DNA of 64,000 bases from assembly GCA_028689015.1 (NCBI GenBank), contig JAQTXC010000001.1, positions 79,758 to 143,757 of the forward strand. Direction: 5' to 3'. Under the pieces are notes generated by a model. The model searched no databases, was not told the DNA's origin, and worked only from the letters and a program-made list of their open reading frames with translations. This stretch comes from Dechloromonas sp. (lineage in GTDB: Bacteria > Pseudomonadota > Gammaproteobacteria > Burkholderiales > Rhodocyclaceae). The translations under genes were made by a program, and so were the position numbers. Below are positions 1,308-23,942 of the stretch, in pieces (positions within the stretch are counted from its first letter, which is position 1; each line of letters opens with the position of its first letter).

Positions 1308-1334
1308 TTATCGGCGGGGACTTGAAAAACTTTA
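1308..1334 (-). promoter_or_regulatory. Sigma-28 (FliA) promoter of flagellin
   Basis: Read on the minus strand the sequence is TAAAGTTT, 11 nt, GCCGATAA. Both boxes and the spacing are an exact match to the FliA consensus TAAAGTTT-N11-GCCGATAA. It sits about 90 bp upstream of the complete flagellin start. This supports FliA/FlgM control of the flagellin pair. Confidence 0.93.
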
Positions 1335-3245: not shown

Positions 3246-4603
3246 CTCTCCCCTGGAAAAAACCGGCAGATGGCGCGTCGACCGCAGCGGCTGCCTTGAG
3301 CGAACCAGCGGAACTCAAGTTGGAAACCGATACTGCGCCGATTGTCCGACGCGGCATTCTTTTTTTGCTGATTGGCTTGGGGGGGTTCATGGCCTGGGCC
3401 ATCTGGGCGCCACTTGATGCCGGGATTCCGGCGCAGGGCGTGGTCACGGTGGATACCAAGCGCAAAACCGTGCAGCACCTGACCGGTGGCATCATCGAAC
3501 AGGTTTTGGTGCATGAAGGGCAGTCAGTTAACCAGAACGACCTGTTGATTCGCCTCAACGATAGTCAGTCGCGGGCCGAGTTTGAAACGGTACGGCAGCG
3601 CTACATCAGTCTGCGTGCGACCGAGGATCGCTTGCTGGCCGAGCAGGCCAATTTGCCGGCCGTCGTTTTTCATGCCGATGTCCAGAAGGAGCGGGGTGAT
3701 CCCCTGATCGCCCAGCATGTCGTGTCGCAGGAGCAATTATTCCTGAGTCGCAAGCAGGCATTGCGCAGCGAGCTGGCCTCGCTCGACGAGGCTGAACAAT
3801 CACAGCGCGATGCGATTCGTGGCTACAGTGAGCAACTGGAATCGCGGCGCCGGCAGGCGGTTTTTTTGCGCGAGGAAGTCAGTGGTATGCGCGAAATGGT
3901 CAAGGAGGGCTATGCACCGCGCAACAAGTTGCTTGAGCTGGAGCGCATGTCGGCCGAACTGGATGCGACGGCGAGCGAGTTGCGTTCCAGCCTGGCCCGG
4001 GCCCAGCGTGCCGTTGCCGAGCTTGCCATTCGCAAACAACAGCGCACGCAGCAGTTCGGCAAGGATATCGACTTCGAGCTGGCCCAGTTGCGGCGCGATG
4101 TCAGCGCCGATGCGGAGCGCATCAAGGCGGCCAGGGAAGCCTTGGCCCGGAGTGAAATTCGTGCCCCGGTCAGTGGTTCGGTCATTGGCATTGCCAACCA
4201 GACGGTGGGCGGGGTGCTGACGCCGGGGGCGCGCATCATGGATGTGGTGCCGCGCGATGAGTTGTTGATGCTGGAGGCGAAAATTCCACCTCATCTGATT
4301 GACCGCATCCGGGTCGACCAGGAAGCCGATATCCGGTTTTCAAATTTCTCGAGCAGTCCGCAGTTGGTGGTCGAAGGCAAACTGGTTTCCCTGTCGGCGG
4401 ATCTGCTGGTCGACCCGGTCGGTGGCGGCTATTATCTGGCCCGCGTGGCCGTCACCCCCAAGGGCGTGGAAGCGCTGGCGCAACATCGTTTGCAGCCGGG
4501 TATGCCGGCCGAAATCATCATCAAGACTGGGGAGCGTTCCTTGCTCACGTATCTCCTGCATCCGCTGACCCGGCGTTTGGTGCAAGCCATGAAAGAGGAG
4601 TGA
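3242..4603 (+). CDS. Type I secretion periplasmic adaptor (HlyD/PrtE family)
   Basis: This is the membrane fusion protein linking the ABC exporter to the outer-membrane channel, 453 aa. A short cytoplasmic N-terminus is followed by one transmembrane segment at about residues 37-58 (GILFLLIGLGGFMAWAIW). A lipoyl/barrel-sandwich half (GVVTVDTKRKTVQHLTGGII) comes next, then a long Q/R/E-rich coiled coil at ~110-300, the second lipoyl half (SEIRAPVSGSVIGI) and a C-terminal beta-barrel typical of the AprE/PrtE/RsaE type. The ATG overlaps the end of the ABC gene, and the stop abuts the tolC-like gene. This three-gene ABC-HlyD-TolC order is classic for a self-contained T1SS operon. Confidence 0.94.
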   Translation: MTLPWKKPADGASTAAAALSEPAELKLETDTAPIVRRGILFLLIGLGGFMAWAIWAPLDAGIPAQGVVTVDTKRKTVQHLTGGIIEQVLVHEGQSVNQNDLLIRLNDSQSRAEFETVRQRYISLRATEDRLLAEQANLPAVVFHADVQKERGDPLIAQHVVSQEQLFLSRKQALRSELASLDEAEQSQRDAIRGYSEQLESRRRQAVFLREEVSGMREMVKEGYAPRNKLLELERMSAELDATASELRSSLARAQRAVAELAIRKQQRTQQFGKDIDFELAQLRRDVSADAERIKAAREALARSEIRAPVSGSVIGIANQTVGGVLTPGARIMDVVPRDELLMLEAKIPPHLIDRIRVDQEADIRFSNFSSSPQLVVEGKLVSLSADLLVDPVGGGYYLARVAVTPKGVEALAQHRLQPGMPAEIIIKTGERSLLTYLLHPLTRRLVQAMKEE

Positions 4604-4605
4604 GC

Positions 4606-6546
4606 ATGGCGATCCGTTCGGTTTTTCGCTGCACTGCGCTGTTCGTTTGTTTGCTGCCATCGGTCCAGGCCGATGATTTATTGTCCTTGTTGCTCGATGC
4701 GCAGATCAGCAATCCCAATTTATTATCGGCAGCCGCGGGCAATGTGGTTGGTCAGGCGGGTAAGGACATTGCCCTGGGCCAGTTGTTGCCCAATCTCAGC
4801 CTGAGCGGCAGCATGACCCAGAACAGCGCTGACCGGCAGACCGGCAATACTCCGAAGGAACATTTCGGTTACGGAAGCCAGAGTTACAACCTGAGCCTGC
4901 GCCAGCCGATTTTTCGAAAATACAATTTGGCGCTCTATGATCAGTCGCGGGCCCAGAGCGAAGCGGCTGAGGCCGATTTCAAACTGGCCTCCAACGCGCT
5001 GGCGGTCAGCCTGACCGAGGCCTACATGAACGCCTTGTACGCCGACGATCAGCTATCACTTCTTGAGGCACAACGGGCGTCGACCGCGGCACAACTGGAG
5101 GCTGCCAAGAAAGCGCAGGCGGTGGGGAGTGGAACGCGGATTGATGTCGATGACGCCCAGGCGAAATATGACCTGATTTTGGCCCAGGTTTCAGAGGCCA
5201 AAAACCAGCAGCAACATACCCGGCGGCAACTGGGCGCCTATGTCAATCGCGAGATTCGCGATCTGGCTGGACTGGACGTCAACAAGTTCTCACCCCTGCC
5301 GCCGCAACCGCTCAATGTCGATGACTGGCTGACAGCAGCCAATGCCCATAGTCCCAGCTACCTGGCGCAACAGGCGCAATTGAAGGCTGCCGGTTTTGAG
5401 GTGGATAAAGCACAGGCCGGGCATTTTCCGGCGCTGGATCTGGTGGCCAATATTGGTAGCGCCAGTAACGACAGTCTGTCGTCGCTGAGTAGTAGCGGCG
5501 ATAGCACGTATGACACGCGCAGTTTGGGCGTTCAGCTGACCATCCCCTTGTTTGCCGGCGGACAGGTGAATGCCACCGTTCGTCAGGCCAAAGCGCGCGA
5601 AGAACAGCAGCGCCAGCGGACCGAGGATGCACGGCGCAACCTCATGGTTGAAACCCGGCGTGAATATGACAACCTAACGCAGGGGATAGAAACCATCCGC
5701 GCCCTGGAAAAAGCCGAACTGTCAGGTCAGAAATCGATTGCATCGGCCAAAAAAGGGATTGCCGCCGGAGTTCGGACCATGCTCGATGTCCTGCAGGCCG
5801 AGCAGGCTTACTTTAATGCCAAGAAAAATCTGGCCCAGGCCCGCTACCGTTACTTGATTTCTGATCTGAAGCTGAAGGCCTTGGCGGGGCGTTTGACGGT
5901 CGGTGATGTGGAGGCGCTGAACCTGCAATTGAAAGGGGGGCAGAAGATCGTGTCCCCGGCCGAAACGAGCGAGCCGAAGCCGGCGACACCGGTGTTGGTC
6001 GCGTCGGTGATGCCGCTGACGGCCGACCGGCCCGTAGCAAGCAAGCTTGCCGAGCCAGCACCGGCCAAGAAGCCGGCGCTGCCAGTTGTCCCGGTGGTTG
6101 TGGAGAACGACAGTCCGCGACCCAACGCGGTCATTTTGTCACGCGTGGGTACGCAGCCGCCGGCGCCGCCCGCCATGCCGGTCCTTCCGGCTGAGAAAAG
6201 TCTTGCCCTGGCCGCGTCGACCGCGACCATCCTGCCCGCACCCGCACCCGCACCCGCACCCGCACCCGCACCCGCACCCGCACCGGGCGCGCTGAATCGG
6301 CCAGTCATGGTCGCCAAGGGGATTTTTGTGCAGTTGGGTGCCTTTTCCAGTCAGGAAAATGCCGCTGCCTTGCGGGAAAGCGTCTTGCAGGCGCAGGTCG
6401 TCCCCGCGGACCAATTACAACAGGTCTTTGTCGATAAGCTGTATCGGGTCTATGTTGGTCCGTATGGCAGTCGGGACCTGGCCGAGGCGATGCGCGGCCG
6501 GTTGACCGCAGCACTGGGTTCGCGGGCAGTGCTGGTGGTGCGCTAA
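4606..6546 (+). CDS. TolC-family outer membrane channel fused to a SPOR domain
   Basis: The mature N-terminal ~420 residues are a TolC/AprF-type outer-membrane efflux channel (signal peptide ending near PSVQADD; repeats rich in LRQPIFRKYN, and GTRIDVDDAQAKYDL). After it comes a Pro/Ala/Val-rich region of ~130 residues that includes an eight-unit Pro-Ala stretch (~544-560). A SPOR domain follows at ~570-646 (IFVQLGAFSSQENAAALRES ... YRVYVGPY). SPOR domains bind denuded glycan strands of septal peptidoglycan, and I do not know this fusion from classical PrtF/AprF proteins of ~450 aa. I chose ATG 4606 (AGAGGAG 5-6 nt upstream) over the GTG at 4600. The fusion could localise or anchor the secretion channel to peptidoglycan; this is inference. 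Confidence 0.92.
   Translation: MAIRSVFRCTALFVCLLPSVQADDLLSLLLDAQISNPNLLSAAAGNVVGQAGKDIALGQLLPNLSLSGSMTQNSADRQTGNTPKEHFGYGSQSYNLSLRQPIFRKYNLALYDQSRAQSEAAEADFKLASNALAVSLTEAYMNALYADDQLSLLEAQRASTAAQLEAAKKAQAVGSGTRIDVDDAQAKYDLILAQVSEAKNQQQHTRRQLGAYVNREIRDLAGLDVNKFSPLPPQPLNVDDWLTAANAHSPSYLAQQAQLKAAGFEVDKAQAGHFPALDLVANIGSASNDSLSSLSSSGDSTYDTRSLGVQLTIPLFAGGQVNATVRQAKAREEQQRQRTEDARRNLMVETRREYDNLTQGIETIRALEKAELSGQKSIASAKKGIAAGVRTMLDVLQAEQAYFNAKKNLAQARYRYLISDLKLKALAGRLTVGDVEALNLQLKGGQKIVSPAETSEPKPATPVLVASVMPLTADRPVASKLAEPAPAKKPALPVVPVVVENDSPRPNAVILSRVGTQPPAPPAMPVLPAEKSLALAASTATILPAPAPAPAPAPAPAPAPGALNRPVMVAKGIFVQLGAFSSQENAAALRESVLQAQVVPADQLQQVFVDKLYRVYVGPYGSRDLAEAMRGRLTAALGSRAVLVVR
6235..6282 (+). repeat. 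Eight tandem copies of CCCGCA
   Basis: Eight perfect hexanucleotide units encode (Pro-Ala)8 between the TolC and SPOR parts of the channel gene. The unit is a multiple of three, so slippage would change linker length without a frameshift. Confidence 0.95.
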
Positions 6547-6580: not shown

Positions 6581-9500
6581 TCAGCGGGCCGGTGTCACCG
6601 CCGTCACCCACTGCGGCAGATGGTCTTCCAGGAGGTAGTGGGTCAGTACCCAGTCACGCAGGCGATCACCTTCGCGGGCCGTGGCGTCGAGGTCGTATAT
6701 CCGCTCACGGATGGCCGCAATCCATTCGCTTGCCACATTGTTGACCCGTTTTACCGGCGCGTGATTGGTCTGGTAGGGGTAAATGTCGGTGCATACCACG
6801 GGCCAGCCCATGATGCCGTACTCCAGTAGCCGCAGATTACTTTTGCCTTCGTTGAACAGGTGTTGTTCGAGCGGGGCAATCGCCAGGTCCAGATTGAGCG
6901 AGGCCAGCTTGGCCGGGTAGTGATTGAAGGCAACAAATGCATGTTCTTCGCGGATATGCGGTTTCAGGAAATCCGGGCACATGCCCATGAAAACCCAGTC
7001 CACTTCGTCCTTCAGTGCTTCGACCACCTGGCAGATCAATTCCAGATCGCCGAGGTGTTGCTGCGCGCCAGCCCAGCCGACCCGTGGTTTTTTGCTGGTG
7101 CGGCGTTGTGGGTTCAAGCCGAGCCAGCGTTCCTTTTCGAGGCGATTGGGGACGACGACGATGTCGTCGATCATGTTGCGGCAGTAGTCGGCCAGGGGTT
7201 CGGTCGACACGATCAGGCGGTCGCAGTACGCCAGTCCTTCGCGCATGCGGGATTTGCCTTCGCGGGCCTGGTAGTTGTAGAGGTAATGCTTGCGCGGCAA
7301 ATTGCCCATCGCATCATCAACGGCATAGGTGATGAAAATATTCCGGTTGTACTGCCGGTAGCGTTTTAACTGGCTGATTTGCGTATCGTCGATCGCTTGC
7401 TGCAGCATCAGGACGTCCGGTGCAGCGCGGGCCAGTTCGATCGGGTTGATGACCCGGCTGACTTTCTTGCTGATCGGATGAACCAGGCAGCATTGGGCCA
7501 GACCGGCGCGCTGCAGGGCGCGGAAAGGGGCGGTCATGCGGTACTCGCCGGACCCACTGGTCAGCGGCACCCCCAGAACGCGGAGCCGGTCGTGGACACG
7601 GGTATCCCAGTCGACCACCGCGTGTGGTTCAATCGCAAAAGGTGTGAGCAGCGACAGTTGACGGTGATAGTTGGGGTCGTTGGCCAAGGTCGGCAGATGC
7701 TGGCGCAGCAGGTAATCCTGCTCAGCCAGCAGGCTTTCCGATTGCCGGTTGCGTTCCGGTGCATCGTTCAAGGCCCGGCGGCGACTGATGCCGCCATGGT
7801 GGATGACATCGACCCACGGAGTCCAGATCAGTTTGCCACCGGCTTGTCCCAGTCGTAGCGACAGGTCGGTCACGCTTTCCTGCAACGGGGTATTGATTTC
7901 GTCGAATTTCCCAGCCTGGAGGAAAGCGTTGCGCTGGACGAGCAGGCAACTGCCGCTGAGCGCTGACATTTCCTGCGAAATTTGCAGTCGACCGCAATAG
8001 CCGGGCTCCAGCAGACCTTTGCCTTCTTCGCCCAGCGGCGCGGTCAGGCCGGCGATGCCGAGCAAACGTGGCAACTGATTGATTTTTGAAAATTTGCCAT
8101 CAGGGCAGGAGAGGCGCGGGGCGACCGCGACGACGTCCTGTTGCTGCACCAGACCCAGCAGGCGAGACAACCAGGCGGGCTGAATGATTTCGGTGTCGTT
8201 GTCGAGAAAGAGCAGATAGTCACCACGGGCTTCGCTGGCGCCCAAATTGGCCAGTCGGGCCCAGTTGAATTCACCATCGCTGCGAATGCAGCGCATGCGA
8301 TCAGCCAGGTCGCCTCGTTCAAGCCAGCCACAAATCAGGTCGAGGGCATCCGGGTCGGTCGTGTCATGGTCAACCAGGATCAGTTCGAAATTTTTGTAGT
8401 CGGTTTCGCTCAGCAGACTGTCAACACAGTGCTGCAGATAGCCAGGTTGGTCGCGGGTCGGGATGATGATGCTGACTTGCGGGTTGCCCTGGGGGGGGTA
8501 GGTGATGGCTTGCGTCCCTTGCAGTACCCCAGGCTCAAGCTGCGCGGCAATGCCCTGGCGGGCAAAATGGGCGTGCAGCGCGGCATGCTCATCGTCCACC
8601 GGCAGCTCGCGCAGCATGGCGTGACTGGTGTGGACCAGAATTTCCGGCAGATGGACCATGCCACGCTGGCCGTACAACTCGCAGAATTTGAGGGCGATGT
8701 CGTAATAACCGGCGCTGCCGGCCCACTGCAGCCCGCCGCAGCCCGCCAGGCTGCGTTTTTCAACAGCCAGGCAGGGGCCGAGGTAGTACATCGAGCGCAG
8801 CATTTCGCGATTGAGCGCCGGCTTGAAGCGCGGATTGGCGAACTCGCCGCTTGCGGTCAACTGGTCTTCATCGCAATAAATCAGCCGCGGCATGCCAGCC
8901 AGATTGAGGGTGTCGGCAAAATAAGCCAGCGCATGCGCCTCCAGCTGGCAACCGGTTTCGAGCAGCAGCAACCAGTCTCCCGGCAAGTCGGCCAGGCAGT
9001 GATTGAATGCATCGACGAAACCGCCTGCCGGCACGGTGTGCCAGGTAACTTGCGGAATCTGGGCCAAGTCGTCGCTGAACGGCGGGAATTCGGCAAAGAT
9101 CGTCAAATGCCAATCGCCATACCACTGCGGGCCCAGGTGATCGAGTGTGTCCGCCAACAGGTTTTCCTCGCCGGCACGAACTTCCAGCACGATGTTGAAT
9201 AGCGGCCGACTCGTCCAGTCGCGCATCATGCGCTCAGCCAGCAACTGCCCGTCGATTTCCTGCAGGGATTTTCGACTGCGCCAGAGGGCGTAATCCTTGG
9301 CGGCTTGATTTTCGTTTGCGGCGATCGTGTTTGCTCGGATGCCTCGCTGGGCGACATGACGGCAGGCAATTTTCTGGGTATGGCGAACAAAGCGCCGGAG
9401 CTGTTGCCAGAAGACTTTTTCACGTGCCTGGAAAATCTCGAAGGCCTGATTGACCGTCTCTTTCGCCCGCTGCCAGCCTTCGGCATCGCCGAGAAGTGCG

Positions 9501-10234
9501 GTACCGAGGGTGCCAAAAATCTCCTGGTTGGGAATGTCAGCATAAAACGGGTTGGGGATATAAACGACCGGACAGCCGCACAACATGGCTTCAGTACAGG
9601 TCGCCGACGGTTCGTAGGCGTACAACACCTCTGCCGATTTGAATAACTTGGCCAGTTCTTCCGGCGAACGGGGGTGGTCGTGGGAGACTTCGAGGGCATC
9701 AGCTGGGTGCTGGTTCAGCAAATCAAGGGTCAGCAGTTTGGGTTTGGCCCGGCTGACAAAAAATAGACTGCCGGTGCGCCGGGTGTGCGCTGGCGGCGGC
9801 TGGAAGAGCGAGAGATCAGAGGTGGGTGTGAAAAGCTGCGGGGCCTCGATACCTGGCGGTAGAAATTCCTTTTTGTAGGCATAAAGAATCTCCTCTGGAT
9901 TGATGTCGTCAGCCCCTCCCACGATTCCTGGCCGATTCAGCAGGTAACGAACGACCAGATCACTGTTTTCCGGATTGCCGTGGACGACTTCCGGATAAAT
10001 GACAATCGGTTTCAGCTCAGCGGCGGCATGTTGCTCGCGCAGTTCAGGCGTTAATAAGGCGGTATTGAGGCGTGGATTGAGTTGCTCAGTGACCAGATAG
10101 GCTTCTTCACCCAGCAAACGAAGCGCATGCGCTAAGTAATGCAGCACCCGGATACCGGATGAACGGTAGGTGTAGGCCGGGGCGTGGATGTAATACGGAT
10201 GATGGCGTTCCCGGTGCAGTTTGCTTCTGGCCAT
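6581..10234 (-). CDS. Multidomain glycosyltransferase (1217 aa)
   Basis: This is a large cytoplasmic protein combining several glycosyltransferase modules. The first ~330 residues resemble a GT-B-like region (HAPAYTYRSSGIRVLHYLAHAL; later EALFCGCPVVY-type motif seen as TEAMLCGCPVVYIPNP). A central GT-A/GT2 domain of the rhamnosyltransferase type begins near residue 585 (VSIIIPTRDQPGY), with a DxD-like LFLDNDTEI near 675. A C-terminal GT-B/GT4-like domain at ~1050-1190 carries RVGWAGAQQHLGDL and LLEYGIMGWPVVCTD. Start at ATG 10234 was preferred over upstream 10288, which lies inside the previous gene; it leaves a 17-bp gap. It is the last gene of the eight-gene glycan operon. Donor and acceptor sugars cannot be read from sequence. 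Confidence 0.88.
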   Translation of the reverse strand: MARSKLHRERHHPYYIHAPAYTYRSSGIRVLHYLAHALRLLGEEAYLVTEQLNPRLNTALLTPELREQHAAAELKPIVIYPEVVHGNPENSDLVVRYLLNRPGIVGGADDINPEEILYAYKKEFLPPGIEAPQLFTPTSDLSLFQPPPAHTRRTGSLFFVSRAKPKLLTLDLLNQHPADALEVSHDHPRSPEELAKLFKSAEVLYAYEPSATCTEAMLCGCPVVYIPNPFYADIPNQEIFGTLGTALLGDAEGWQRAKETVNQAFEIFQAREKVFWQQLRRFVRHTQKIACRHVAQRGIRANTIAANENQAAKDYALWRSRKSLQEIDGQLLAERMMRDWTSRPLFNIVLEVRAGEENLLADTLDHLGPQWYGDWHLTIFAEFPPFSDDLAQIPQVTWHTVPAGGFVDAFNHCLADLPGDWLLLLETGCQLEAHALAYFADTLNLAGMPRLIYCDEDQLTASGEFANPRFKPALNREMLRSMYYLGPCLAVEKRSLAGCGGLQWAGSAGYYDIALKFCELYGQRGMVHLPEILVHTSHAMLRELPVDDEHAALHAHFARQGIAAQLEPGVLQGTQAITYPPQGNPQVSIIIPTRDQPGYLQHCVDSLLSETDYKNFELILVDHDTTDPDALDLICGWLERGDLADRMRCIRSDGEFNWARLANLGASEARGDYLLFLDNDTEIIQPAWLSRLLGLVQQQDVVAVAPRLSCPDGKFSKINQLPRLLGIAGLTAPLGEEGKGLLEPGYCGRLQISQEMSALSGSCLLVQRNAFLQAGKFDEINTPLQESVTDLSLRLGQAGGKLIWTPWVDVIHHGGISRRRALNDAPERNRQSESLLAEQDYLLRQHLPTLANDPNYHRQLSLLTPFAIEPHAVVDWDTRVHDRLRVLGVPLTSGSGEYRMTAPFRALQRAGLAQCCLVHPISKKVSRVINPIELARAAPDVLMLQQAIDDTQISQLKRYRQYNRNIFITYAVDDAMGNLPRKHYLYNYQAREGKSRMREGLAYCDRLIVSTEPLADYCRNMIDDIVVVPNRLEKERWLGLNPQRRTSKKPRVGWAGAQQHLGDLELICQVVEALKDEVDWVFMGMCPDFLKPHIREEHAFVAFNHYPAKLASLNLDLAIAPLEQHLFNEGKSNLRLLEYGIMGWPVVCTDIYPYQTNHAPVKRVNNVASEWIAAIRERIYDLDATAREGDRLRDWVLTHYLLEDHLPQWVTAVTPAR

Positions 10235-10251
10235 GGTCAATACTTTCAGAT

Positions 10252-11307
10252 CTATTTTTTCTGGATATACAGGGTGTCGCCAAGACAATAGGCTTGCTCG
10301 ATCAGGTCAGCGTGCTGCTGCAGATAGTGGTCGCCCGCTTGCCGGGGGCCGCTGCCAAAACTCCAGCAATAATCGTCGATCAGTATCCAGCCGCCGCTGC
10401 CTACCCAGGGGCTCCAGGCGGCGATATCGGCGCTCACCGCTTCAAGCGCATGATTCCCGTCAATGTGTAGCAAGGCAATTGTGCCGGTGGACTCTGTCCG
10501 GCTGAACGCCGTACCGGCACGATAGCTTTCTGCGCCCTGGCATGAGGTCGACCGCAACCAATCGAGATTGTCGAGGTTGAAGGCTTGGCGTATGGCTCGA
10601 AAGTAGTGATGGACGTCGTTATAGCGCCGATGTCGGGAGGCGGTGTTGACCAGCTTTGCAGAATCGCCCTGGTCGCCAGCTTCTTGATTCGACCAAGGGT
10701 CAATACAGAGCACATGGCCCAGATTCAATCTGCGGGCCAGATAGGCAAAGGCATAGGCACTACGTCCAAACAGGCTGCCGATTTCGACAATGTCACCCGC
10801 CGGACAACGGCCCATGAGTTCAACGATGGCCTCCAGTTTGGCAAGATCACTTTGCCCTGGGATGGTAAAGAAGCCCAGATGTAGACCGGATAGCGTGTCC
10901 AGAGCGTCGCTTCCCAGGCGGCTGACGGCGGTGGCCGGCATGACCGCAAGTTGTTTTTGTGCCCAACTGACGGCAAGGCGATAGCGGCTTAGATCTTGTT
11001 CGTAAGGCGAGGGTTGCAGTAACGATAAACTCAATTGTCCCTGTCGGATCAAATCGTCAAGACTGGCCCAGACCACCGGGTGCGGGCTGTAGAGGTGGGT
11101 AATCCGCTCGGTTGTGATCAGTGCGCGTAAGGCGTCGATAAAACCCCTGTCGGAGACGTAAGGCAAGTACAGAAAATGGTCATTGCCTCGATCTGAATGA
11201 GCGCAGGCGACCTCGATTCCCAAACTGTGGGCTTGGTGTTGCATTTGCCCAGCAGCATCGCCATCAAATGGAAAAATAAGGAGTTTGGGTGGGTTGACCG
11301 TGGTCAT
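10252..11307 (-). CDS. SAM-dependent methyltransferase with N-terminal ligase-like domain
   Basis: This protein has 351 residues. The C-terminal half (about 165-350) is a class I methyltransferase of the Methyltransf_24/TylF-like kind. The SAM-binding motif is GDIVEIGSLFGRSA near residue 169, then VLCIDPWSN, and the acidic LLHIDGNHALE and ILIDDY motifs. The N-terminal ~150 residues (LLIFPFDGDAAGQMQHQAHSLG) look like a nucleotide-sugar or pre-ATP-grasp style Rossmann domain, with low certainty. It overlaps the upstream sulfotransferase gene by 4 bp and is followed by the large glycosyltransferase, so sugar or glycan O-methylation is the likely role (inference from context). Confidence 0.82.
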   Translation of the reverse strand: MTTVNPPKLLIFPFDGDAAGQMQHQAHSLGIEVACAHSDRGNDHFLYLPYVSDRGFIDALRALITTERITHLYSPHPVVWASLDDLIRQGQLSLSLLQPSPYEQDLSRYRLAVSWAQKQLAVMPATAVSRLGSDALDTLSGLHLGFFTIPGQSDLAKLEAIVELMGRCPAGDIVEIGSLFGRSAYAFAYLARRLNLGHVLCIDPWSNQEAGDQGDSAKLVNTASRHRRYNDVHHYFRAIRQAFNLDNLDWLRSTSCQGAESYRAGTAFSRTESTGTIALLHIDGNHALEAVSADIAAWSPWVGSGGWILIDDYCWSFGSGPRQAGDHYLQQHADLIEQAYCLGDTLYIQKK

Positions 11308-12251
11308 CTCGGAAGTTTCCTGGAAATCTCGAATTGGGTGGGCCCTCGATATTCTTTGGCTGGCAAGCCTGTTTTCATCAGCAGCTCGGCAAAGTAAGGC
11401 TGCGGGTGTCGACAGAAGTCTTCGTAAGACACGTGCATTTTCCTTTCCGGGCTGAGCTTGGCCATCCCGCGTTCAATGGCGGCATTAATATACTCAACCT
11501 GTCCTATGGCTTGCTGCTCCGGAGAGGCGCTTTCTAGTAGTACTCGTTCTGGAATGTCGAATGAGTACCAAGTTTCAGTATTGCCAAACTGGCGCTGCCG
11601 AGCCTCGAGAATTGATGCCGCATTGCTAGCTGTATCCCGCTTGAGCTGAATGAACAGAGCTTTTTCGAAAATTGAATCAAGAAAGGGGATGTTGTAATTA
11701 AACAGCATGCCCTTGGCTGCGAAAGGCCGGTCAAAAACATCAATCAAGCCGTTGATTTCCGATTGCAAAGCCACGGTGTCAAAAGTGTCCCGCAGTTCGT
11801 CGTCTGACCAGATATCGCGTTCTGGGTCGGCCAGAAAGCGACGCCAGAAATACCAGAACTCATGAGGTGATAGGCTGCCCTTGGTTTTGCCGTTGTTTGA
11901 ATTGAAGTCGCCGTTGTTGACCAGATCGTTGAGTTCATCGCGAAAGTTGAAGCGGGGGTCGGTGAGTAGCAACTGGATTTTGGCGCCGATGATCGGGGCA
12001 CCATAAAAACGCGACAGTAGGTTGCTGGGGTAACCAAAAAGACCGCTTTGCGCCAGCCACTGCATGAACAGGGTTGTGCCGCTACGCAAGGGGCCCATCA
12101 CGAAAATAAGGGGATGCCGCATACCTTGTCCGAAATGCTCGGTCATCGCCTGTTGTTCCGCCACGCCGAGTCGGTTGTTGATGTCCTGCAGCAGTGTTTC
12201 CAGGGCGGCGTTGCGCGAGAAGTGGCTGGTACGTGTTCTAGCGGAGGTCAT
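11304..12251 (-). CDS. Sulfotransferase family protein
   Basis: This is a predicted PAPS-dependent sulfotransferase of 315 residues. The 5'-phosphosulfate-binding loop is visible near residues 49-65 as FVMGPLRSGTTLFMQWLA (the PxRSGTT motif). A later 3'-phosphate-binding region is plausible around FIQLKRDTASNAASI. Length fits the Sulfotransfer_1/3 families. It overlaps neighbours at both ends (14 bp with the WbqC gene upstream, 4 bp with the methyltransferase gene), so it is co-translated within the glycan operon and probably sulfates a sugar. PAPS supply would come from sulfate activation genes such as the cysNC at the right end of the window. Confidence 0.85.
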   Translation of the reverse strand: MTSARTRTSHFSRNAALETLLQDINNRLGVAEQQAMTEHFGQGMRHPLIFVMGPLRSGTTLFMQWLAQSGLFGYPSNLLSRFYGAPIIGAKIQLLLTDPRFNFRDELNDLVNNGDFNSNNGKTKGSLSPHEFWYFWRRFLADPERDIWSDDELRDTFDTVALQSEINGLIDVFDRPFAAKGMLFNYNIPFLDSIFEKALFIQLKRDTASNAASILEARQRQFGNTETWYSFDIPERVLLESASPEQQAIGQVEYINAAIERGMAKLSPERKMHVSYEDFCRHPQPYFAELLMKTGLPAKEYRGPTQFEISRKLPR

Positions 12252-12927
12252 AGGCTCGTAAAAACCTCTGGCATTGGCTGGGGGTGTTGAACATGATCAG
12301 ATCAATGATTGAGAGCATTGGAACAAATGGTGCCGAGAATTGTGGGTAGCAGATGTCGTGCGGGGCAATGAACTCAAGCGCGATGCCGTGTGCCCGGAAT
12401 TGCTCGCGATCATAGAGCGCTGTGCCACCGGGTAGATTGACGTAGTGGGTCGCTTGCAGTGTCTGGCATAAATCCAAAATTTTCTGCGTGCCACGTTGTG
12501 TTGGGTCTTGCTCAATCTGCGATGAGGTTAACCATTCTGTTTCTATTCCGAGGTAGTCGGCCGTGCGAATCAGGCTGGTGCTTAGAAAGCGGGCGAGATT
12601 CGTTTCCTCGTTGGTCAGACATTGTTCAATGAGTGGAAATGCGCGACCAAAGCAGGGGGCCTTCCGGTAGTTTTGGTAGAGGGTGTCGAGCAGTTTTTTC
12701 GGAATGGGCAATCGTTCGTGTTCGTCAATGTGTCGATTTTGGCTGGCAGCTTTGACCGGTAGGGTGATACGTTGCGCTTGTTGGTGCCCCAGAATGACGT
12801 TGCGATTGATCCAGCCGCGGGTGATGTAATTGACGTCATCGAAAAAGACGAAATGGTCGACTGCCATCATCAGCTGAAAATAGCCGATATAGGGGAAAAA
12901 ATAGGGTTGCATCACCGCAAGTTTCAT
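12238..12927 (-). CDS. WbqC family protein
   Basis: This 229-aa protein starts MKLAVMQPYFFPYIGYFQLM and continues FVFFDDVNYITRGWINRN, both signatures of the WbqC family. WbqC proteins occur in O-antigen and sugar-modification loci, usually next to DegT aminotransferases. Their exact reaction is not firmly established, but they are treated as acyl or aminoacyl-transfer-like enzymes on amino sugars. Here it lies directly after a DegT-family aminotransferase, which fits that pairing. ATG 12927 begins a family-typical N-terminus with no extra residues. Confidence 0.87.
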   Translation of the reverse strand: MKLAVMQPYFFPYIGYFQLMMAVDHFVFFDDVNYITRGWINRNVILGHQQAQRITLPVKAASQNRHIDEHERLPIPKKLLDTLYQNYRKAPCFGRAFPLIEQCLTNEETNLARFLSTSLIRTADYLGIETEWLTSSQIEQDPTQRGTQKILDLCQTLQATHYVNLPGGTALYDREQFRAHGIALEFIAPHDICYPQFSAPFVPMLSIIDLIMFNTPSQCQRFLRAYDLR

Positions 12928-12949
12928 GGTGCCTGACTGTTCGCTTGGC

Positions 12950-14086
12950 TTAACGAGTCTTGTAAGCGGAAATGACAGCGGTGATGCGCATGATTTGCTC
13001 TGAATCCAGGTGAGGCGACAGCGGCAAGCAAATCACTTTCTGGGCGCGGTCACGGGCGTTTGGCAGGCGTTCTGGCATGGCTGACGGCAGGCCGCGGTAC
13101 ATCGGCAGGTCGCTGATCAGTGGGTAGAAATAACGTCGGCCGTGAAAGCCGGCGGCGCGCAGGTGCTCATAGAGTTGGTCGCGGGTCAGCGGGTAGTCGG
13201 CTTCGACCCAGATCGGGAAGTAGGCGGCATTGTCGAGGATGCCTGGCGCGGTTTGGCGAGGGTGGATGCCGGGAATGCCGTGCAGTGCGTCGCGATAGCA
13301 GTCGACCAGCGCCCGTCGGCGGTCGAGGACTGCGTCGATGTGTTTGAGTTGAAGCAGGCCGAAGGCGGCATTGAGTTCACTCATCTTGCCGTTGATGCCA
13401 GGGGCGACGACGGTGACTTCATCAGCAAAACCAAAATTTTTCAGGTAGTCGATGCGCTGTTTGGTACGAGCGTCCGGGCTGATGATGGCGCCGCCTTCAA
13501 AGGTGTTGAAAACTTTGGTGGCGTGAAAGCTCAGGATGGATAGGTCGCCGTGGCGCAGGATGCTGCCACCGGGGTCGCGGACGCCAAAGGCATGGGCTGC
13601 ATCGTAAATAACCTTGAGGCCGTAGGCGTCGGCAATCTGCTGAATGCGGTCGACGGCGCACGGGGTGCCATAACAATGGACTGGCAAGATGGCGGTGGTT
13701 GCCGGCGTGATGGCTTCTTCAATGCGGGCCGGGTCGAGATTGCAGGTTTCGGGATCGATATCGACAAAAACCGGTTTCAGGTTGTTCCAGAGCAGCGAGT
13801 GGGCGGTGGCGGCGAAGGTGTATGGGGTGGTGATGACTTCGCCGTTGATGCGCAGGGCCTGAAGCGCCGTCATCAGGGCTAGGGTGCCGTTGGCAAAAAG
13901 CGAGATGTGTTCGACGCCCAGGTGTTCGGCCAGTGCGCTTTCGAATTGCTGATGAAAGGGGCCGCCGTTGGTCAGTCGCCGGCTCTGCCAGATCGCCTCG
14001 AGGTAGGGCTGGAATTCTTCCAGGGGCGGTAGATAGGGCTCGGTGACGTAGATCGGCGGGTTTTGGGCGGGCGGTGACGTCGGCAT
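12950..14086 (-). CDS. DegT/DnrJ/EryC1/StrS aminotransferase
   Basis: This is a PLP-dependent sugar aminotransferase of 378 residues. Conserved features are LFANGTLALMTALQAL (phosphate-binding region), VIYDAAHAFG (Asp contacting the PLP ring nitrogen) and LSFHATKVFNTFEGGA, where the Lys is the Schiff-base residue. The C-terminus has the RRYFYPL segment typical of the family. ATG 14086 was chosen because the longer ORF start (14170) lies within the upstream gene; the gap to that gene's stop is 11 bp. It likely makes an amino sugar nucleotide for the glycan assembled by this operon. Confidence 0.9.
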   Translation of the reverse strand: MPTSPPAQNPPIYVTEPYLPPLEEFQPYLEAIWQSRRLTNGGPFHQQFESALAEHLGVEHISLFANGTLALMTALQALRINGEVITTPYTFAATAHSLLWNNLKPVFVDIDPETCNLDPARIEEAITPATTAILPVHCYGTPCAVDRIQQIADAYGLKVIYDAAHAFGVRDPGGSILRHGDLSILSFHATKVFNTFEGGAIISPDARTKQRIDYLKNFGFADEVTVVAPGINGKMSELNAAFGLLQLKHIDAVLDRRRALVDCYRDALHGIPGIHPRQTAPGILDNAAYFPIWVEADYPLTRDQLYEHLRAAGFHGRRYFYPLISDLPMYRGLPSAMPERLPNARDRAQKVICLPLSPHLDSEQIMRITAVISAYKTR

Positions 14087-14097
14087 GATCCGGTTAC

Positions 14098-15480
14098 TCA
14101 GGTCAGAATGCGGATGTCGATGCAGGTTTTGTACCAAGGGCTGCGCCGCTCGGCCAGATTCCAGCGCCATTCGCCCTCTTTGCGGCTATATAAACAGAAG
14201 GGAATGCCGAGGGCGCCGGCGAGATTGGCGCCTGCGGTGTCTACGGTCAGTAGTTTTTGCAGGTTTACGGTCAACGCGGCTGCCAGGTCAAAATTGCTGA
14301 GCCATGGGCTTGGGTCGGGCACTTGTTGTGTGGCCAGGGTGTGGCGCTCGTCGGGTGTGGCGGCATGTTGCAGGCTGATGGCCGGTCGGTCGGTTGCTTC
14401 GAGTTGGCAAAACAGGCGGTCGACTGTCGTTGACCGTAAGGCATCTTGCGGGTGCTGTGGGTTGCCACGCCAGATGAGGCCACAGCGCGGACGATGGGCT
14501 TGTTCGCTTAGCCAGTGCTCGACTTTGGCGTGTGCGGCGGCGCTGGGTTGCAGGTAGCCGTCACTGGCAGGGGGCGTCAACCAGCCACGGCGGAGCAGGT
14601 GCAGCGGCAGGCTGCCGATTGGGCAGGCGTAATCGACGGGGCTGCTTACTGTGTCAGTGCTGCTGCAGACGTGGATCGCCGGAAAACTGGCTTGCAGCAG
14701 CGCTTGTAGCGGCTTGGGTACAAGCAGCGTCAGTTGTCTGGCCTCGTCGATCAGTGCGGGCAGGTAGCGGGCAAACAGCAGGTTGTCGCCCAGTCCTTGC
14801 TCTGGCAGAACGACGAGATGCTTGCCGGCGAGTGACTGGCCTTGCCAGAGGGGGCGTCCGGGCAGGGTGCGGGGCTGCTCGTCATCCCGCCAGCGCGCTT
14901 CGTACAGCGGCCAGGCCTCGGCCCAGCGCTCGGCGCGCAGCAGGGCTAAGGCGGCGGCAAAGCGATGCAGGCGTTGCTGCGGGGCGAGGCGCATGGCTTG
15001 CTGGATGGCCGCGATACCGGCGTCGATCTGCCCGGCGGCAACCAGGGCTTGGCCGAGGTCGCACCAGGTGCTATCGGCGCGCGGATGGCGGCGGACGGTG
15101 TCGCGGTGAACGTGAATGGCTTCGGAAAAATGGCCCAGGCGATAGAGCAGGGCGCCCAGGTTATGCGCCCCGGCCAGGTGATCAGGGTGGCGGTTGAGTA
15201 GGTCGATATAGGCGGCAATGGCGTCGTGCGGTGCCTTGCAGTCGGCCAGCAGATTAGCCCGGCAGGTGAGTAGCGTGGGGTCGTTGGCGTCTTGTTCAAG
15301 GGCGTATTCGATGGCGACGCGGGCTTCATGGAAGCGCTGGCGTGCTTCAAGGGCCAGCGCCAGGCCCAGCAGATGGGCCGGATTCGTTGGGTCGGTCAGC
15401 AGTCGTTGATGAAAAAACTGCTCGGCGGCGCTGGTCTGGCCCGTTTGTAACAGGGCTTTGCCGGCCGGATCGATCAGCAT
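14098..15480 (-). CDS. TPR protein with GT9-like glycosyltransferase domain
   Basis: This protein has 460 residues. The N-terminal ~210 residues are tetratricopeptide repeats (HLAGAHNLGALLYRLGHFSEAIHVH and similar 34-residue units). The C-terminal ~240 residues resemble the heptosyltransferase/GT9-like fold that follows TPRs in many bacterial proteins (LVVLPEQGLGDNLLFARYLP; CGLIWRGNP; LLTVDTAGANLAGALG). Proteins of this architecture are common next to flagellin and surface-glycan genes. It overlaps the upstream SPINDLY-like gene by 7 bp. The acceptor is unknown; a protein acceptor is suggested by the TPRs (inference). Confidence 0.82.
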   Translation of the reverse strand: MLIDPAGKALLQTGQTSAAEQFFHQRLLTDPTNPAHLLGLALALEARQRFHEARVAIEYALEQDANDPTLLTCRANLLADCKAPHDAIAAYIDLLNRHPDHLAGAHNLGALLYRLGHFSEAIHVHRDTVRRHPRADSTWCDLGQALVAAGQIDAGIAAIQQAMRLAPQQRLHRFAAALALLRAERWAEAWPLYEARWRDDEQPRTLPGRPLWQGQSLAGKHLVVLPEQGLGDNLLFARYLPALIDEARQLTLLVPKPLQALLQASFPAIHVCSSTDTVSSPVDYACPIGSLPLHLLRRGWLTPPASDGYLQPSAAAHAKVEHWLSEQAHRPRCGLIWRGNPQHPQDALRSTTVDRLFCQLEATDRPAISLQHAATPDERHTLATQQVPDPSPWLSNFDLAAALTVNLQKLLTVDTAGANLAGALGIPFCLYSRKEGEWRWNLAERRSPWYKTCIDIRILT

Positions 15481-16973
15481 GTTGCGCTGAGGGCGGTGAC
15501 GAGTTGCGTGAATTGCGCTTCCAGTTCCCGGGTCAGGCCGGCCTGATCGAGCAGGGGCGATGTCCGGAGATGCCCCCGTTGCTGGCGACGTTGTGCGTCC
15601 AGACCAGCCGGTTCACTCGCCCAATGGATGGCGGTCTGCACATAGGCTTGGGGGCTCTCGACGATGCCGGCCGGCAAATTTGCGGCGGCGAGAATTGCCG
15701 CTGCGGCACGTTCTGCTGGCAGGGTGCCGGCCAGGGTCAGGCAGGGCAAGCCTTGCCACAAGGCGTGCGCGGTGGTGACGGCGCCGGACAGGGGGAAGGG
15801 CTCAAGGGCAATGTCGATGGCTTCGCCCTGGCGAAAAAAGTCGCTGCGCGATTGTTGCGGCAACAGGTCGACCCGCGCGTTTGGCACGCCGTGGGCCGCC
15901 AGGTGTTGACGCCAGTGTTGGCCTTGGCTGTGCTCGGTGCCCGGCGCGTGTGGGCCGATCAAGCGTAGCCGGGCATTGGGTACGGCATCGAGGATTTGTC
16001 GCCAGCAGGTGAGTGTGGCCGGCGATACTTTTTGTACATTGTTTAGACTACCGAAGGTGACGTAGCCGTTTTGCAGACAAGGGGCCGGGCCGGGCTCGGG
16101 CAGATCAGGTGGCGGGGCGAAACAGGCAAAATGTGGCAGGCGGATGATGGGTTCGGTAGCCCATTGCTCGTTGCCCGGCGGGTCCATGATCGAATCGCTG
16201 AGTCGGCCGTCCAGTACACTCAGGCCACTGGTGCCGTTGTAGCCAAACCAGGTCAGTTGAATGGGGGCGGGACGGCGCGCCAAGGTCAGCAGGCGCGTCC
16301 CTTCGCTATGACCGGAGAGATCAATCAGGATGTCGATGCCGCGGCGCTGGATCAACTTGGCCAGCGCGGCATCGTCCAGGGTTCGGACCTCGTTCCAGTA
16401 ATCAAAGCGCGCTTTGATGCCGGCGGTCAACGCATCCGCCTGGCCGGAAAAGAAGGCGATCAGCTCGAATTGTTGCCGGTCGTGCTGTTCGAGCAGTGGC
16501 GCGAAGAAATCCATCAAGGCGTGCTGGCGAAAGTCGGCCGACAGATAGCCCAGGCGGATTTTTCCCCGGGGTTTTCGCAGGGCGGGGCGGGCAGAGGACA
16601 ATGGGTCGGCAAAGCGCTGGCCCCAGTCGCGGTAAGCGGCGAGTACGGTCGCTGGCGTGCTGCCACAGGCCTGGTGCAGATAGGCCAGGGCAGAGTACAG
16701 GCGCTGATCGTTGGGCGAACGGCGAATGGCCTCACTGATGGCCGCCCGCGCGGCCGGGGGGTCGCCCAGCTTGAGCCGGGCAATCGCCTCACCGAACCAG
16801 GCGTCGCCCAGGCGCGGGGCAATTTGTTGCGCGGCGAGGAAAGTCGCCAGGGCCTCGGCAGGGTCGTGAATTTTCAGGTAGAGAAAACCCACTTCGCACC
16901 ACAAGGCACCGTTCTGGGGGGCCTTGCTCAGGCGTTGCAGGCAGTCCGCCAGTTGTTCCAGCGGGTTCTTCAT
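15474..16973 (-). CDS. SPINDLY/OGT-like O-linked glycosyltransferase (GT41)
   Basis: This protein has 499 residues. N-terminal TPR-like repeats cover ~1-130. A GT41 (O-GlcNAc transferase/SPINDLY-type) catalytic domain begins at ~136 (KIRLGYLSADFRQHALM). It continues with DILIDLSGHSEGTRL, PIQLTWFGYNGTSG (matching the conserved P-Q-V-x-W-x-G-Y-x-x-T-x-G motif) and YVTFGSLNNVQKVSP. This family transfers a sugar to Ser/Thr of proteins. The position 14 kb from flagellin, in an operon of sugar-modifying genes, makes flagellin or a secreted protein the leading acceptor candidate (inference). It overlaps the cyclase gene by 4 bp. Confidence 0.88.
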   Translation of the reverse strand: MKNPLEQLADCLQRLSKAPQNGALWCEVGFLYLKIHDPAEALATFLAAQQIAPRLGDAWFGEAIARLKLGDPPAARAAISEAIRRSPNDQRLYSALAYLHQACGSTPATVLAAYRDWGQRFADPLSSARPALRKPRGKIRLGYLSADFRQHALMDFFAPLLEQHDRQQFELIAFFSGQADALTAGIKARFDYWNEVRTLDDAALAKLIQRRGIDILIDLSGHSEGTRLLTLARRPAPIQLTWFGYNGTSGLSVLDGRLSDSIMDPPGNEQWATEPIIRLPHFACFAPPPDLPEPGPAPCLQNGYVTFGSLNNVQKVSPATLTCWRQILDAVPNARLRLIGPHAPGTEHSQGQHWRQHLAAHGVPNARVDLLPQQSRSDFFRQGEAIDIALEPFPLSGAVTTAHALWQGLPCLTLAGTLPAERAAAAILAAANLPAGIVESPQAYVQTAIHWASEPAGLDAQRRQQRGHLRTSPLLDQAGLTRELEAQFTQLVTALSATC

Positions 16974-18778
16974 GTGGCGGGAGATTTGACGACCCGGTTC
17001 TTGCCGGTTTGCTTGGCGTTATACATGGCTTCATCGGACCGTTTGATAACGGTGGCCTGGGTGTCGTCTTCGGTCATCTGGGTGACGCCGGCACTGAAGG
17101 TGATAAGAATTTTTTCATTGCCACCCAGGAAAAAGCGCTTGGTCAGCTCGCGCTGCAACCGGGTCAGCACGGCGGCCGCATCGTCTAGGGGGGTTTCTGG
17201 CAGCAAGATGATGAATTCTTCGCCGCCGTAACGGGCGACCGTATCTTGCGGGCGCAGGGTTTCCCGGCAGACTTGGGCTAGGTGGATTAGCGCCTGGTCG
17301 CCCACATCGTGACCGTGGGCATCGTTCAATTTCTTGAAATTATCGATGTCAAGCAGGGCGACGCAGAGGACGGTGTCGTGGCGCTGGCTGCGCGCCATTT
17401 CCTTGTTGAACATGTCCTCCAGGCCGCGTCGGTTGAGGACGCCGGTCAATTGGTCATGGCGGACCAGGTTGCTGGTTGCTTCCAGTTCCTTTTCCAGTTG
17501 CTGGATGCGGGCTTCGGATTCTTGAACTTTTTGCTGGGTCGACCGCAACTCGTCACGCGCGTGCTCGGTGCTTAACTGGATGTTGCGCGTTTCCTTCATC
17601 ACTTCGGTGATGACGCTTTCCAATTCCGACAAATCATTGGCCGCGGTGATTTTTTCCGCGCATTCGCCTATCTTGCCGTGATAGTCCGAGGTCGCATCAG
17701 AAAACAACGCCAATTGGTCGATAAAACCGGCCAGCAAGTGCTTGATCGCATCGCGTGCATCACGCAGGCTGCTCTTCAGCTGGCTCTGCTTGAACAGGAC
17801 TTCCTTCAGTCGCCGTTCGGCATCGTCGATGGTCCGCTGCGACAAGGGTTTGTCGATGATGTCGCGCACTATGTCGATTTGGCCATTCAGCCAGACATCA
17901 TCGACGACCAGTTCATGCACGTTTTCAACCAGTAGACGCAGCAACTCCAGTAGGCTGCGCCGCAATTCGGCTTGGTCTTCGGTCAGTAGATCCAGCTTAT
18001 AAGCAAAGCGCTTGAGGCGTTCGAGAAAACCGCTTAGTGCCTCCGGGGCCTGGGCACGACGGACCTCATCGGCCAGTTGGCGGGCATCTGTGGCGAGGGC
18101 CGGGCTGTCCACCAATTGCGTGGCGACGGTTGCTTCTAGCGTGAATGCGAATAACTCGCGCAATTCGGGCAACAAGGCGCCACCCTCATCGACGCTCGCG
18201 GGTGGCGTAGAGGAGAGATCATGCGCTGCCGTATCGTCATCGCCTGCGGCTGATTCGTCCTCTGGCGTGGTCGTATCCACCGTTTTGCCGTTGCCCCAGG
18301 CGCGCAGCAAATTTTGCAGGCGCTTGAACAGGATTTCGGGATTGCTCGCGCTGTTGTTCAGGACATGATCGAGTGATTCACGCTTGCGGGCAGTGGTTAG
18401 CCCCGGGTGTTTGGCTTCGGCCTGGCGTAAAACATCGGCGATCAGGTCGCCCCAAGTCAGGCGCTGGCTATCGACCAGGCCACTGACAAAATCCGCGAGA
18501 TATTTCCGGTAATCGTCCCAACTACTGTTTTTGACGGCTTCGTCGAGCAGACGGGCCAGGCGCAACTGGTCCGGCGAGCTTTTGGGCAGTGCGGCGGCGA
18601 GGGAACGCAATTGTTTGTCGGGAAATTCAGCGGCTTCGGGCTTTTTGCTGCCTGGTCGAGTACCAGCAATCTCGTGGTATAGCGTCAGGTAATTGTCGGG
18701 TGTCGGCGGCGTGCGGCGTACCGCCAACTGTTTCAGCGTCTCGCGGGCGATCTCGAAAGGATTGGTCGGCGTGCTCAT
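16970..18778 (-). CDS. Diguanylate cyclase (GGDEF) leading the glycan operon
   Basis: This is a cytoplasmic GGDEF protein of 602 residues that makes c-di-GMP from two GTP. The active-site motif is GGEEF at about 516-520. An RxxD inhibitory site (RPQD) sits five residues before it, so product inhibition is likely. The C-terminal SFSAGVTQ and DEAMYNAKQTGKNRV motifs are intact. The N-terminal ~330 residues contain no known sensor that I recognise but have a heptad-rich stretch just before GGDEF (~385-430), typical of dimerisation. No transmembrane segment is visible. It is the first gene of eight that overlap or nearly abut; its ATGA overlap with the SPINDLY-like gene links c-di-GMP synthesis to glycan synthesis. 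Confidence 0.92.
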   Translation of the reverse strand: MSTPTNPFEIARETLKQLAVRRTPPTPDNYLTLYHEIAGTRPGSKKPEAAEFPDKQLRSLAAALPKSSPDQLRLARLLDEAVKNSSWDDYRKYLADFVSGLVDSQRLTWGDLIADVLRQAEAKHPGLTTARKRESLDHVLNNSASNPEILFKRLQNLLRAWGNGKTVDTTTPEDESAAGDDDTAAHDLSSTPPASVDEGGALLPELRELFAFTLEATVATQLVDSPALATDARQLADEVRRAQAPEALSGFLERLKRFAYKLDLLTEDQAELRRSLLELLRLLVENVHELVVDDVWLNGQIDIVRDIIDKPLSQRTIDDAERRLKEVLFKQSQLKSSLRDARDAIKHLLAGFIDQLALFSDATSDYHGKIGECAEKITAANDLSELESVITEVMKETRNIQLSTEHARDELRSTQQKVQESEARIQQLEKELEATSNLVRHDQLTGVLNRRGLEDMFNKEMARSQRHDTVLCVALLDIDNFKKLNDAHGHDVGDQALIHLAQVCRETLRPQDTVARYGGEEFIILLPETPLDDAAAVLTRLQRELTKRFFLGGNEKILITFSAGVTQMTEDDTQATVIKRSDEAMYNAKQTGKNRVVKSPAT

Positions 18779-18817: not shown

Positions 18818-18891
18818 GCCCCCGTAGCATGAAGGTCGTGCAGTTGATTTGTAATCATCAGGTAGCGGTTCGATTCCGTTCGGGGGCACCA
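18818..18891 (+). tRNA. tRNA-Thr(UGU)-like gene with atypical D-arm
   Basis: The 74-nt segment folds as a cloverleaf. The acceptor is GCCCCCG/CGGGGGC plus ACCA encoded. The D-stem is GCAT/GTGC, the anticodon loop TTTGTAA (anticodon TGT), the T-stem AGCGG/CCGTT and the T-loop TTCGATT. Oddities: the D-loop GAAGGTC lacks the usual A14 and A21, the anticodon stem has one U-U mismatch, and the variable loop is four nt. A TATAAT box and a strong intrinsic terminator flank it, so it looks transcribed. It could be a diverged functional tRNA-Thr or a decaying extra copy. Confidence 0.75.
18848..18862 (+). repeat. 15-bp direct repeat, copy in the tRNA anticodon arm
   Basis: TTTGTAATCATCAGG occurs here and again at 19367-19381, 519 bp downstream in the same orientation. 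It covers the anticodon loop and 3' anticodon stem, a usual crossover site for tyrosine integrases. Confidence 0.85.
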
Positions 18892-21782: not shown

Positions 21783-22280
21783 TTACAGATAACGACGGCG
21801 CAAGCCGTGGTCGATGGACAGCCGGCCGGGGCCAAGCAGGACCAAAGGCAAGAACATGCCGATAAACAGCGCCGGTAATTTGAAATTGCCAAAGCCTTGA
21901 TCGGTAAAAACATAGCCCTGCATTAATTCGCCCCAGGTGTGCCATTGGGCAGGCCAGTGCACGCTGATCATGGCGACTACGGTCAACACGATTAAAGAAA
22001 CCGAAAAGAAACTGGTGGCCAGGCCAACGATGAGCGCGATTCCTCCCAGTAATTCAAACCAGGTTGCCATCTGCCAGCTGATCTCGGGGGGGACGAGATT
22101 GAACGGGAAGGGGAATTGCCCTTGGATATCGGCGAACCAGTTGCTGCCGTTGAATTTCTCCAGGCCGGATTCGAAATAATCCCAGCCGAGCAGGACGCGC
22201 AGGCTCAGCAAGCCCAGCCAGAGACCGAGTAGGTCGATGCCATTTAGGCCTTGGCGGGCGATGTGTCGTAGGGTGTTCAT
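21783..22280 (-). CDS. DoxX family membrane protein (HvfD-like)
   Basis: This 165-residue integral membrane protein of the DoxX family has about four transmembrane segments (LDLLGLWLGLLSLRVLLGWDYFESG; LLGGIALIVGLATSFFSVSLIVLTVVAMI; ALFIGMFLPLVLLGPG). DoxX proteins commonly close hvf/MNIO RiPP operons (called HvfD there), with an undefined redox or quinone-linked role. The start overlaps the end of the HvfC-like gene by 4 bp. It is the final gene of the four-gene cluster. Confidence 0.87.
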   Translation of the reverse strand: MNTLRHIARQGLNGIDLLGLWLGLLSLRVLLGWDYFESGLEKFNGSNWFADIQGQFPFPFNLVPPEISWQMATWFELLGGIALIVGLATSFFSVSLIVLTVVAMISVHWPAQWHTWGELMQGYVFTDQGFGNFKLPALFIGMFLPLVLLGPGRLSIDHGLRRRYL

Positions 22281-23880: not shown

Positions 23881-23907
23881 GGGCGACTCCAGCTTAGGTG
23901 AGGGGGA

Positions 23908-23929: not shown

Positions 23930-23942
23930 CACTACAATTGAC

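Follow-up and report, generated by a model that had tools for sequence, protein, structure and literature searches.

A conserved diguanylate cyclase bordering the flagellin locus of Rhodocyclaceae precedes a variable, putative flagellin-glycosylation island

Why should an enzyme predicted to synthesize cyclic di-GMP (c-di-GMP) stand first in a run of glycan genes close to flagellins? The question is raised by a 64,000-nucleotide stretch of Dechloromonas sp. DNA (assembly GCA_028689015.1, contig JAQTXC010000001.1, positions 79,758 to 143,757 of the forward strand), here called the window, in which a GGDEF diguanylate cyclase heads eight closely spaced genes. An earlier note on this DNA proposed that the arrangement links control of motility or adhesion to glycosylation of surface proteins. 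The analysis reported here points to a cyclase that is associated with flagella, and to seven genes behind it that form an exchangeable flagellin-glycosylation island between the cyclase and the flagellin gene fliC, a reading to which a probability of roughly 0.6 is assigned.

The eight genes are located on the minus strand and span 6581-18778, with the coordinates and strand that the earlier note had assigned to them, and each junction read directly from the sequence is either an overlap or a gap of at most 23 bp. The cyclase gene (16970..18778) overlaps by 4 bp (ATGA) the gene for a SPINDLY-type protein of glycosyltransferase (GT) family 41 (15474..16973), which overlaps by 7 bp the gene for a 460-residue protein with tetratricopeptide repeats (TPR) and a GT-like domain (14098..15480). 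An 11-bp gap separates the latter from the DegT gene (12950..14170) if the ATG at 14086, the more likely start, is used rather than 14170, and a 22-bp gap follows before the WbqC gene (12238..12927). The WbqC gene overlaps the sulfotransferase gene (11304..12251) by 14 bp, the sulfotransferase gene overlaps the methyltransferase gene (10252..11307) by 4 bp, and 17 bp, counted from the ATG at 10234, lead to the last gene, encoding a 1217-residue GT2 enzyme (6581..10234). Internal promoters, which the earlier note had named as a finding that would speak against it, did not appear in a scan of the minus strand inside the operon for sigma-70-like sequences, a kind of scan that is weak. The genes are thus co-directional, overlap or abut and have no internal promoter found, the layout of a predicted operon, and all eight are predicted to be carried on one transcript read from the cyclase end.

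The cyclase is a protein of 602 residues, predicted to be soluble, with a Pfam GGDEF match of 2.5e-44. It is built of a helical N-terminal domain, a long coiled coil, and a GGEEF active site with an RxxD inhibitory site (I-site; RPQD) five residues ahead of it. The GGEEF motif, D477/D479 and the I-site residues R509..D512 were invariant in 25 of 25 orthologues, and the intact I-site described before is therefore confirmed. No transmembrane helix was evident in an AlphaFold model (predicted template-modelling score, pTM, 0.38), the GGDEF part of which matched the structures of SiaD, DgcB and PleD; these matches dominated the search, and nothing more could be learned from the model about the N-terminal domain. 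Based on the GG[D/E]EF motif, the metal- and GTP-binding residues and the I-site, the protein is predicted to be a diguanylate cyclase that synthesizes c-di-GMP, one of 37 GGDEF matches in the 2.87-Mb draft genome.

Orthologues of the cyclase were retrieved with its non-GGDEF part, as the GGDEF domain is too common to be a safe guide. The same cyclase was found in relatives named Azonexus, Dechloromonas, Propionivibrio and Accumulibacter, which places the locus in Rhodocyclaceae, and cultured carriers of the locus include Dechloromonas denitrificans, D. hortensis, Azonexus fungiphilus and A. hydrophilus. Co-oriented sugar genes followed the cyclase in 26 of the 35 genus loci that extend 9 kb or more downstream, sugar or flagellin genes followed in 31 of 35, and such markers stood upstream in none of the 17 loci that reach 9 kb in either direction, fractions that describe the loci and are not an independent test since the marker set was drawn from them. 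The sets of genes differ by species, among them nucleotidyltransferase-epimerase-DegT-NeuB, PseB/PseC-like genes and TylF-oxidoreductase-WbqC-DegT-GT; the GT41-TPR-DegT island of locus L083 comes closest to the window cassette, and four genus loci (L058, L060, L080 and L109) have flagellin directly after the cyclase. The locus therefore has the features of a flagellin-glycosylation island: transferase and sugar genes in a flagellin locus, with type I secretion genes intervening in the window, and a content that varies among related genomes at a fixed site.

The survey was extended to 170 genomes of the family with completeness of at least 90%. Among the matches listed, the cyclase and FliD were on one contig in 70 of the 170, and FliD was 2.7 to 46 kb downstream in 56 of these 70, co-oriented with the cyclase in all 56. 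Of twenty such loci fetched, eight from other genera (L177-L184) have the order cyclase-fliC-flaG-fliD without any sugar marker in the gap, and the others mostly have islands containing sugar genes. A locus from another family (L054) carries the cyclase, a second GGDEF gene, fliC, flaG and fliD in this order, while in two more families (L053:2863-14642 and L056:2823-15086) the cyclase directly precedes the flgB-flgK operon, with sigma-54-like sequences before flgB. A chance neighbourhood is rejected by the conserved gene order, found widely, and by the empty upstream side of the cyclase. What these loci share is the flagellum, the glycan genes vary, and in Rhodocyclaceae, a family of bacteria from water and sludge, the cyclase holds a constant place in the flagellin locus. 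The link proposed in the earlier note accordingly holds in part: the flagellar locus, the tight glycan operon and the wide conservation agree with it, but the cyclase is tied first of all to the flagellum rather than to the glycan genes, since flagellin follows the cyclase without glycan genes in several genera and flgB-flgK follows in two families.

The distribution of the cyclase also parallels that of FliD, scored as present on a strong match only. In the genus, 54 genomes had both, 5 the cyclase only, 2 FliD only and 16 neither (p=2e-10, a value that, as with those below, ignores relatedness). Restricting the genus to the 57 genomes at least 90% complete gave 47, 2, 1 and 7 in the same order (p=1e-6), and the 170 family genomes gave 136, 7, 11 and 16 (p=1.7e-10). 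In each of seven genera (g18, g25, g56, g58, g70, g74 and g78) one species lacks both and a sister has both, and the joint loss is therefore not a single event. Four flagellum-less members of the genus retain the ParA-IclR-tRNA-Thr neighbours, with the cyclase gone. One relative in g18 has the cyclase and FliD 1 Mb apart, a single case which hints that more than linkage is behind the co-loss. Accumulibacter was considered as a test of co-loss between unlinked genes and proved uninformative, with the cyclase in 26 of 28 genomes and FliD in 25 of 28.

The proteins encoded behind the cyclase are consistent with synthesis and attachment of a modified sugar. The first, of 499 residues, combines TPR with a GT41 catalytic region (Pfam 7.9e-37), as in SPINDLY and OGT, and matches over nearly its full length the bacterial OGT of PDB entry 5djs (TtOGT; 3e-73) and plant SPINDLY, 7y4i (8e-72). 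For the 460-residue protein Pfam returned TPR models only and no transferase domain; SPINDLY and OGT were the best Foldseek matches of its AlphaFold model, with low overall TM-scores of about 0.4 or less, and it looks like a second TPR protein with a C-terminal GT-B-like domain, a fold assignment of moderate confidence. Its relative in L083 is in the same position with 40% identity. The DegT/DnrJ protein is a putative nucleotide-sugar aminotransferase (Pfam 4.8e-101; PDB 2po3, 7.7e-73), of which copies 61-72% identical are present in other islands, and the WbqC-like protein is matched at 8e-70. The sulfotransferase (Sulfotransfer_3, 5.7e-14) has no sequence relative in the PDB, and no homologue was found among the other islands fetched. 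The methyltransferase is matched by Methyltransf_24 (9e-19), and Pfam therefore agrees with the predicted amination, methylation and sulfation functions proposed earlier. The last protein has a central GT2 domain (1.8e-18); translation from the ATG at 10234 yields the 1217 residues reported before, and the mechanical open reading frame from TTG (10288) yields 1235. Its homologues, 33-37% identical, are encoded directly ahead of fliC in L041, L042, L049, L062, L071, L093 and L104.

In the window, fliC (390..1217, minus strand; identified with Pfam) starts a cluster that runs past the window start. In the order of the genome itself (L138 = G000:C21:60000-79999) the cluster consists of flagellins, flaG, fliD, fliS, fliK, an flhB-like gene and ycgR, and beyond ycgR on the same contig are fliE, a sigma-54 regulator with its kinase, and fliF. 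The YcgR at the cluster end has PilZN and PilZ domains, the family of c-di-GMP readers. Two flagellins, including fliC of the window, are intact and one is frameshifted: the second of the three in tandem is split into N-terminal and C-terminal reading frames (window 1-313 and G000:C21:79007-80070 = L197:1508-2571), either a pseudogene or an assembly error. Ahead of fliC is a sigma-28 promoter, TAAAGTTT-N11-GCCGATAA (1308..1334, minus strand), the only zero-mismatch site in 20 kb, whereas a search of the glycan operon's minus strand found no sigma-28 site with up to 2 mismatches.

Taken together, the gene order and domains suggest how the locus could work. The cyclase would be a c-di-GMP synthase that borders the Rhodocyclaceae flagellin locus on its left, with the operon transcribed from its end. 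The GT41 and 460-residue enzymes, TPR/GT proteins of the cytoplasm, would attach a sugar to flagellin before export and the 1217-residue enzyme would extend it; DegT, WbqC and the methyl- and sulfotransferase would make or decorate an amino sugar. The cyclase, limited by its I-site, may supply flagellar readers, for instance the YcgR of the cluster, with c-di-GMP, a signal to stop swimming, and the motor would slow.

Several observations weigh against the proposal of a flagella-associated cyclase followed by a flagellin-glycosylation island. FliD occurs without the cyclase in 11 family genomes (g30 and g51 repeatedly) and the cyclase without FliD in 7, four of them in genus g33; since exceptions run in both directions, the cyclase is accessory and not essential for flagella. 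In g33, four of the five sampled species (G152, G208, G246 and G273) keep the cyclase without FliD; a housekeeping role independent of flagella is nevertheless not favoured, given the co-loss. Block deletion accounts for part of that loss, the genes being linked in most lineages, and in the Accumulibacter loci fetched the cyclase is away from flagellar genes. No full sugar-nucleotide pathway is encoded in the cassette; Pfam detected no NeuB or PseB among the eight operon genes. The glycan operon and fliC are separated, if only by a type I secretion operon of the plus strand (1494..6546; ABC, HlyD and TolC with a SPOR domain by Pfam). Finally, the 300 bp upstream of the window cyclase hold no convincing site for sigma-28 or sigma-54.

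The secretion operon bears on the target of the cassette. The earlier note had placed the glycan genes next to flagellins and a type I secretion system, and both are near, with the latter between the operon and fliC rather than beside both as a constant partner: such genes, with the SPOR-domain TolC part, were seen inside or beside the gap between cyclase and fliC in few other islands only (L101, L133 and L187). Its position in the window would suit a cassette that decorates a secreted substrate of this system, an O-antigen or a capsule instead of flagellin, as would the DegT, WbqC, sulfotransferase and GT2 families, which are also present in O-antigen loci. Such a target is considered unlikely, for many relatives encode a homologue of the 1217-residue enzyme immediately ahead of fliC, two cytoplasmic TPR and GT proteins suit protein targets, and no Wzx, Wzy or ABC glycan exporter was matched by Pfam among the eight operon genes.

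The upstream region of the cyclase is short and occupied by a divergent tRNA-Thr (TGT) gene (18818..18891, plus strand; ARAGORN) about 40 bp ahead of it, together with the tRNA promoter, of which the best match in the window has a -35 hexamer overlapping the cyclase start codon. The tRNA gene is a conserved border, retained beside nearly all genus orthologues of the cyclase and seen in several further genera. A conserved GATTATA upstream of the cyclase is read as the -10 element belonging to the tRNA-Thr promoter of the opposite strand. Sites for sigma-28 or sigma-54 in the relatives' upstream regions were sporadic and of low quality, and control of the cyclase by either factor was rejected; the cyclase is therefore not visibly timed with flagellin. 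Since the tRNA promoter fills the upstream region and fliC follows a sigma-28 site, the cyclase is probably expressed from a housekeeping-type start and flagellin from sigma-28. Shared transcriptional control with flagellin, as linked control might imply, thus finds no support.

tRNA genes are frequent sites of recombination, and the flanking tRNA raises the possibility that the cyclase is only the conserved border gene, behind which cassettes became fixed by using its promoter and ribosome traffic, with no link between c-di-GMP and glycans. The first genes downstream vary widely and include non-sugar genes (a Uma2-family gene, a 2-hydroxyacid dehydrogenase and a lipid A acyltransferase), and several genera keep the cyclase without an island. 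This is the simpler account of the cassette position and a serious contender, rated somewhat short of even odds. It leaves unexplained the tie of the cyclase to flagellin, and to flgB in other families, and its loss with flagella; moreover, it contradicts only the cyclase-glycan part of the reading preferred here, that of a flagella-associated cyclase with an exchangeable island. The Uma2-family gene lies 15 bp behind the cyclase in two genus relatives (L061 and L064), where it replaces the sugar gene.

The junctions behind the cyclase bear on the opposite possibility, that its c-di-GMP directly controls the glycan enzymes or expression of the island and decoration shifts as cells slow and attach. 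The 4-bp overlap of stop and next start seen in the window with GT41 recurs with a nucleotidyltransferase (11 relatives) and with an epimerase (L194); contact within a few bases occurs with a hexose dehydratase (L082), DegT (L089) and another GT41 (L083). Because contact arose with unrelated first genes, the junctions appear to favour selection for co-translation, but in many loci the gap is 30-300 bp. The first position of the cyclase, this recurrence and the conserved active site and I-site are what direct coupling would lead one to expect, but Pfam matched no c-di-GMP-binding domain (PilZ, MshEN or EAL) in any of the seven glycan proteins, and several genera have cyclase and fliC without glycan genes between. 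Direct coupling is judged improbable, the least favoured of the explanations considered. A broader proposal is doubtful, that of a family-wide module in which a leader cyclase dedicated to flagella is co-translated with any flagellin-glycosylation cassette present, and its c-di-GMP, with YcgR as reader at the other cluster end, brings flagellin decoration into step with the slowing of the motor. Linked control of motility and glycosylation in the general sense is a plausible hypothesis.

Elsewhere in the window, a TonB receptor gene (19598-21781) adjoins genes at 21783-24257 for DoxX, DUF2063/NGO1945, an MbnB/TglH/ChrH-family enzyme and a 104-residue reading frame with no Pfam match, which look like a copper-related operon of the HvfABCD type, associated with ribosomally synthesized and post-translationally modified peptides.

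Polymorphic glycosylation islands adjacent to flagellin are established in Aeromonas and Pseudomonas (PMC7874193). Those of P. aeruginosa, P. syringae and Aeromonas resemble the present locus in the strain- or species-variable transferase and sugar-synthesis genes beside flagellin, followed by fliC-flaG-fliD; here, in contrast, a conserved diguanylate cyclase leads, GT41 and a sulfotransferase are present with no pseudaminic acid synthase, and secretion genes are inserted. FlmG of Caulobacter is a cytoplasmic TPR and GT flagellin O-glycosyltransferase (PMC7591256) with an N-terminal TPR and a C-terminal GT-B-type domain, soluble as well, to which the 460-residue protein may be likened by domain plan only; the difference is that two such proteins are in tandem here, one a clear GT41. 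That protein resembles SPINDLY and OGT in nearly full-length TPR and GT41 architecture, and differs in being bacterial and in a flagellin locus. DgcP of Pseudomonas, a polar GGEEF cyclase whose overproduction lowers swimming (PMC7033161), is similar by description only as a GGEEF cyclase linked to motility; it acts through FimV, and the available text of that source describes no flagellin-locus position for it. The YcgR flagellar brake has its likeness in the PilZN and PilZ gene of the same flagellin cluster, and is an effector rather than a synthase. What is unusual is to find a c-di-GMP writer at one end of a cluster and a reader at the other. No earlier description of a cyclase heading a flagellin-glycosylation locus was found in the searchable literature, which misses most subscription journals; within that limit, the conserved cyclase as leader of such an island would be new.

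Flagellin-glycosylation islands and control of motility by c-di-GMP are both well known, yet have been studied apart. The place kept by the cyclase before flagellin or flgB, its contact with changing cassettes and its co-loss with flagella indicate a likely job for one of the many GGDEF proteins of this genome. The locus offers a direct test of coordination between flagellin decoration and motor control, and suggests joint handling of swimming control and flagellar decoration.

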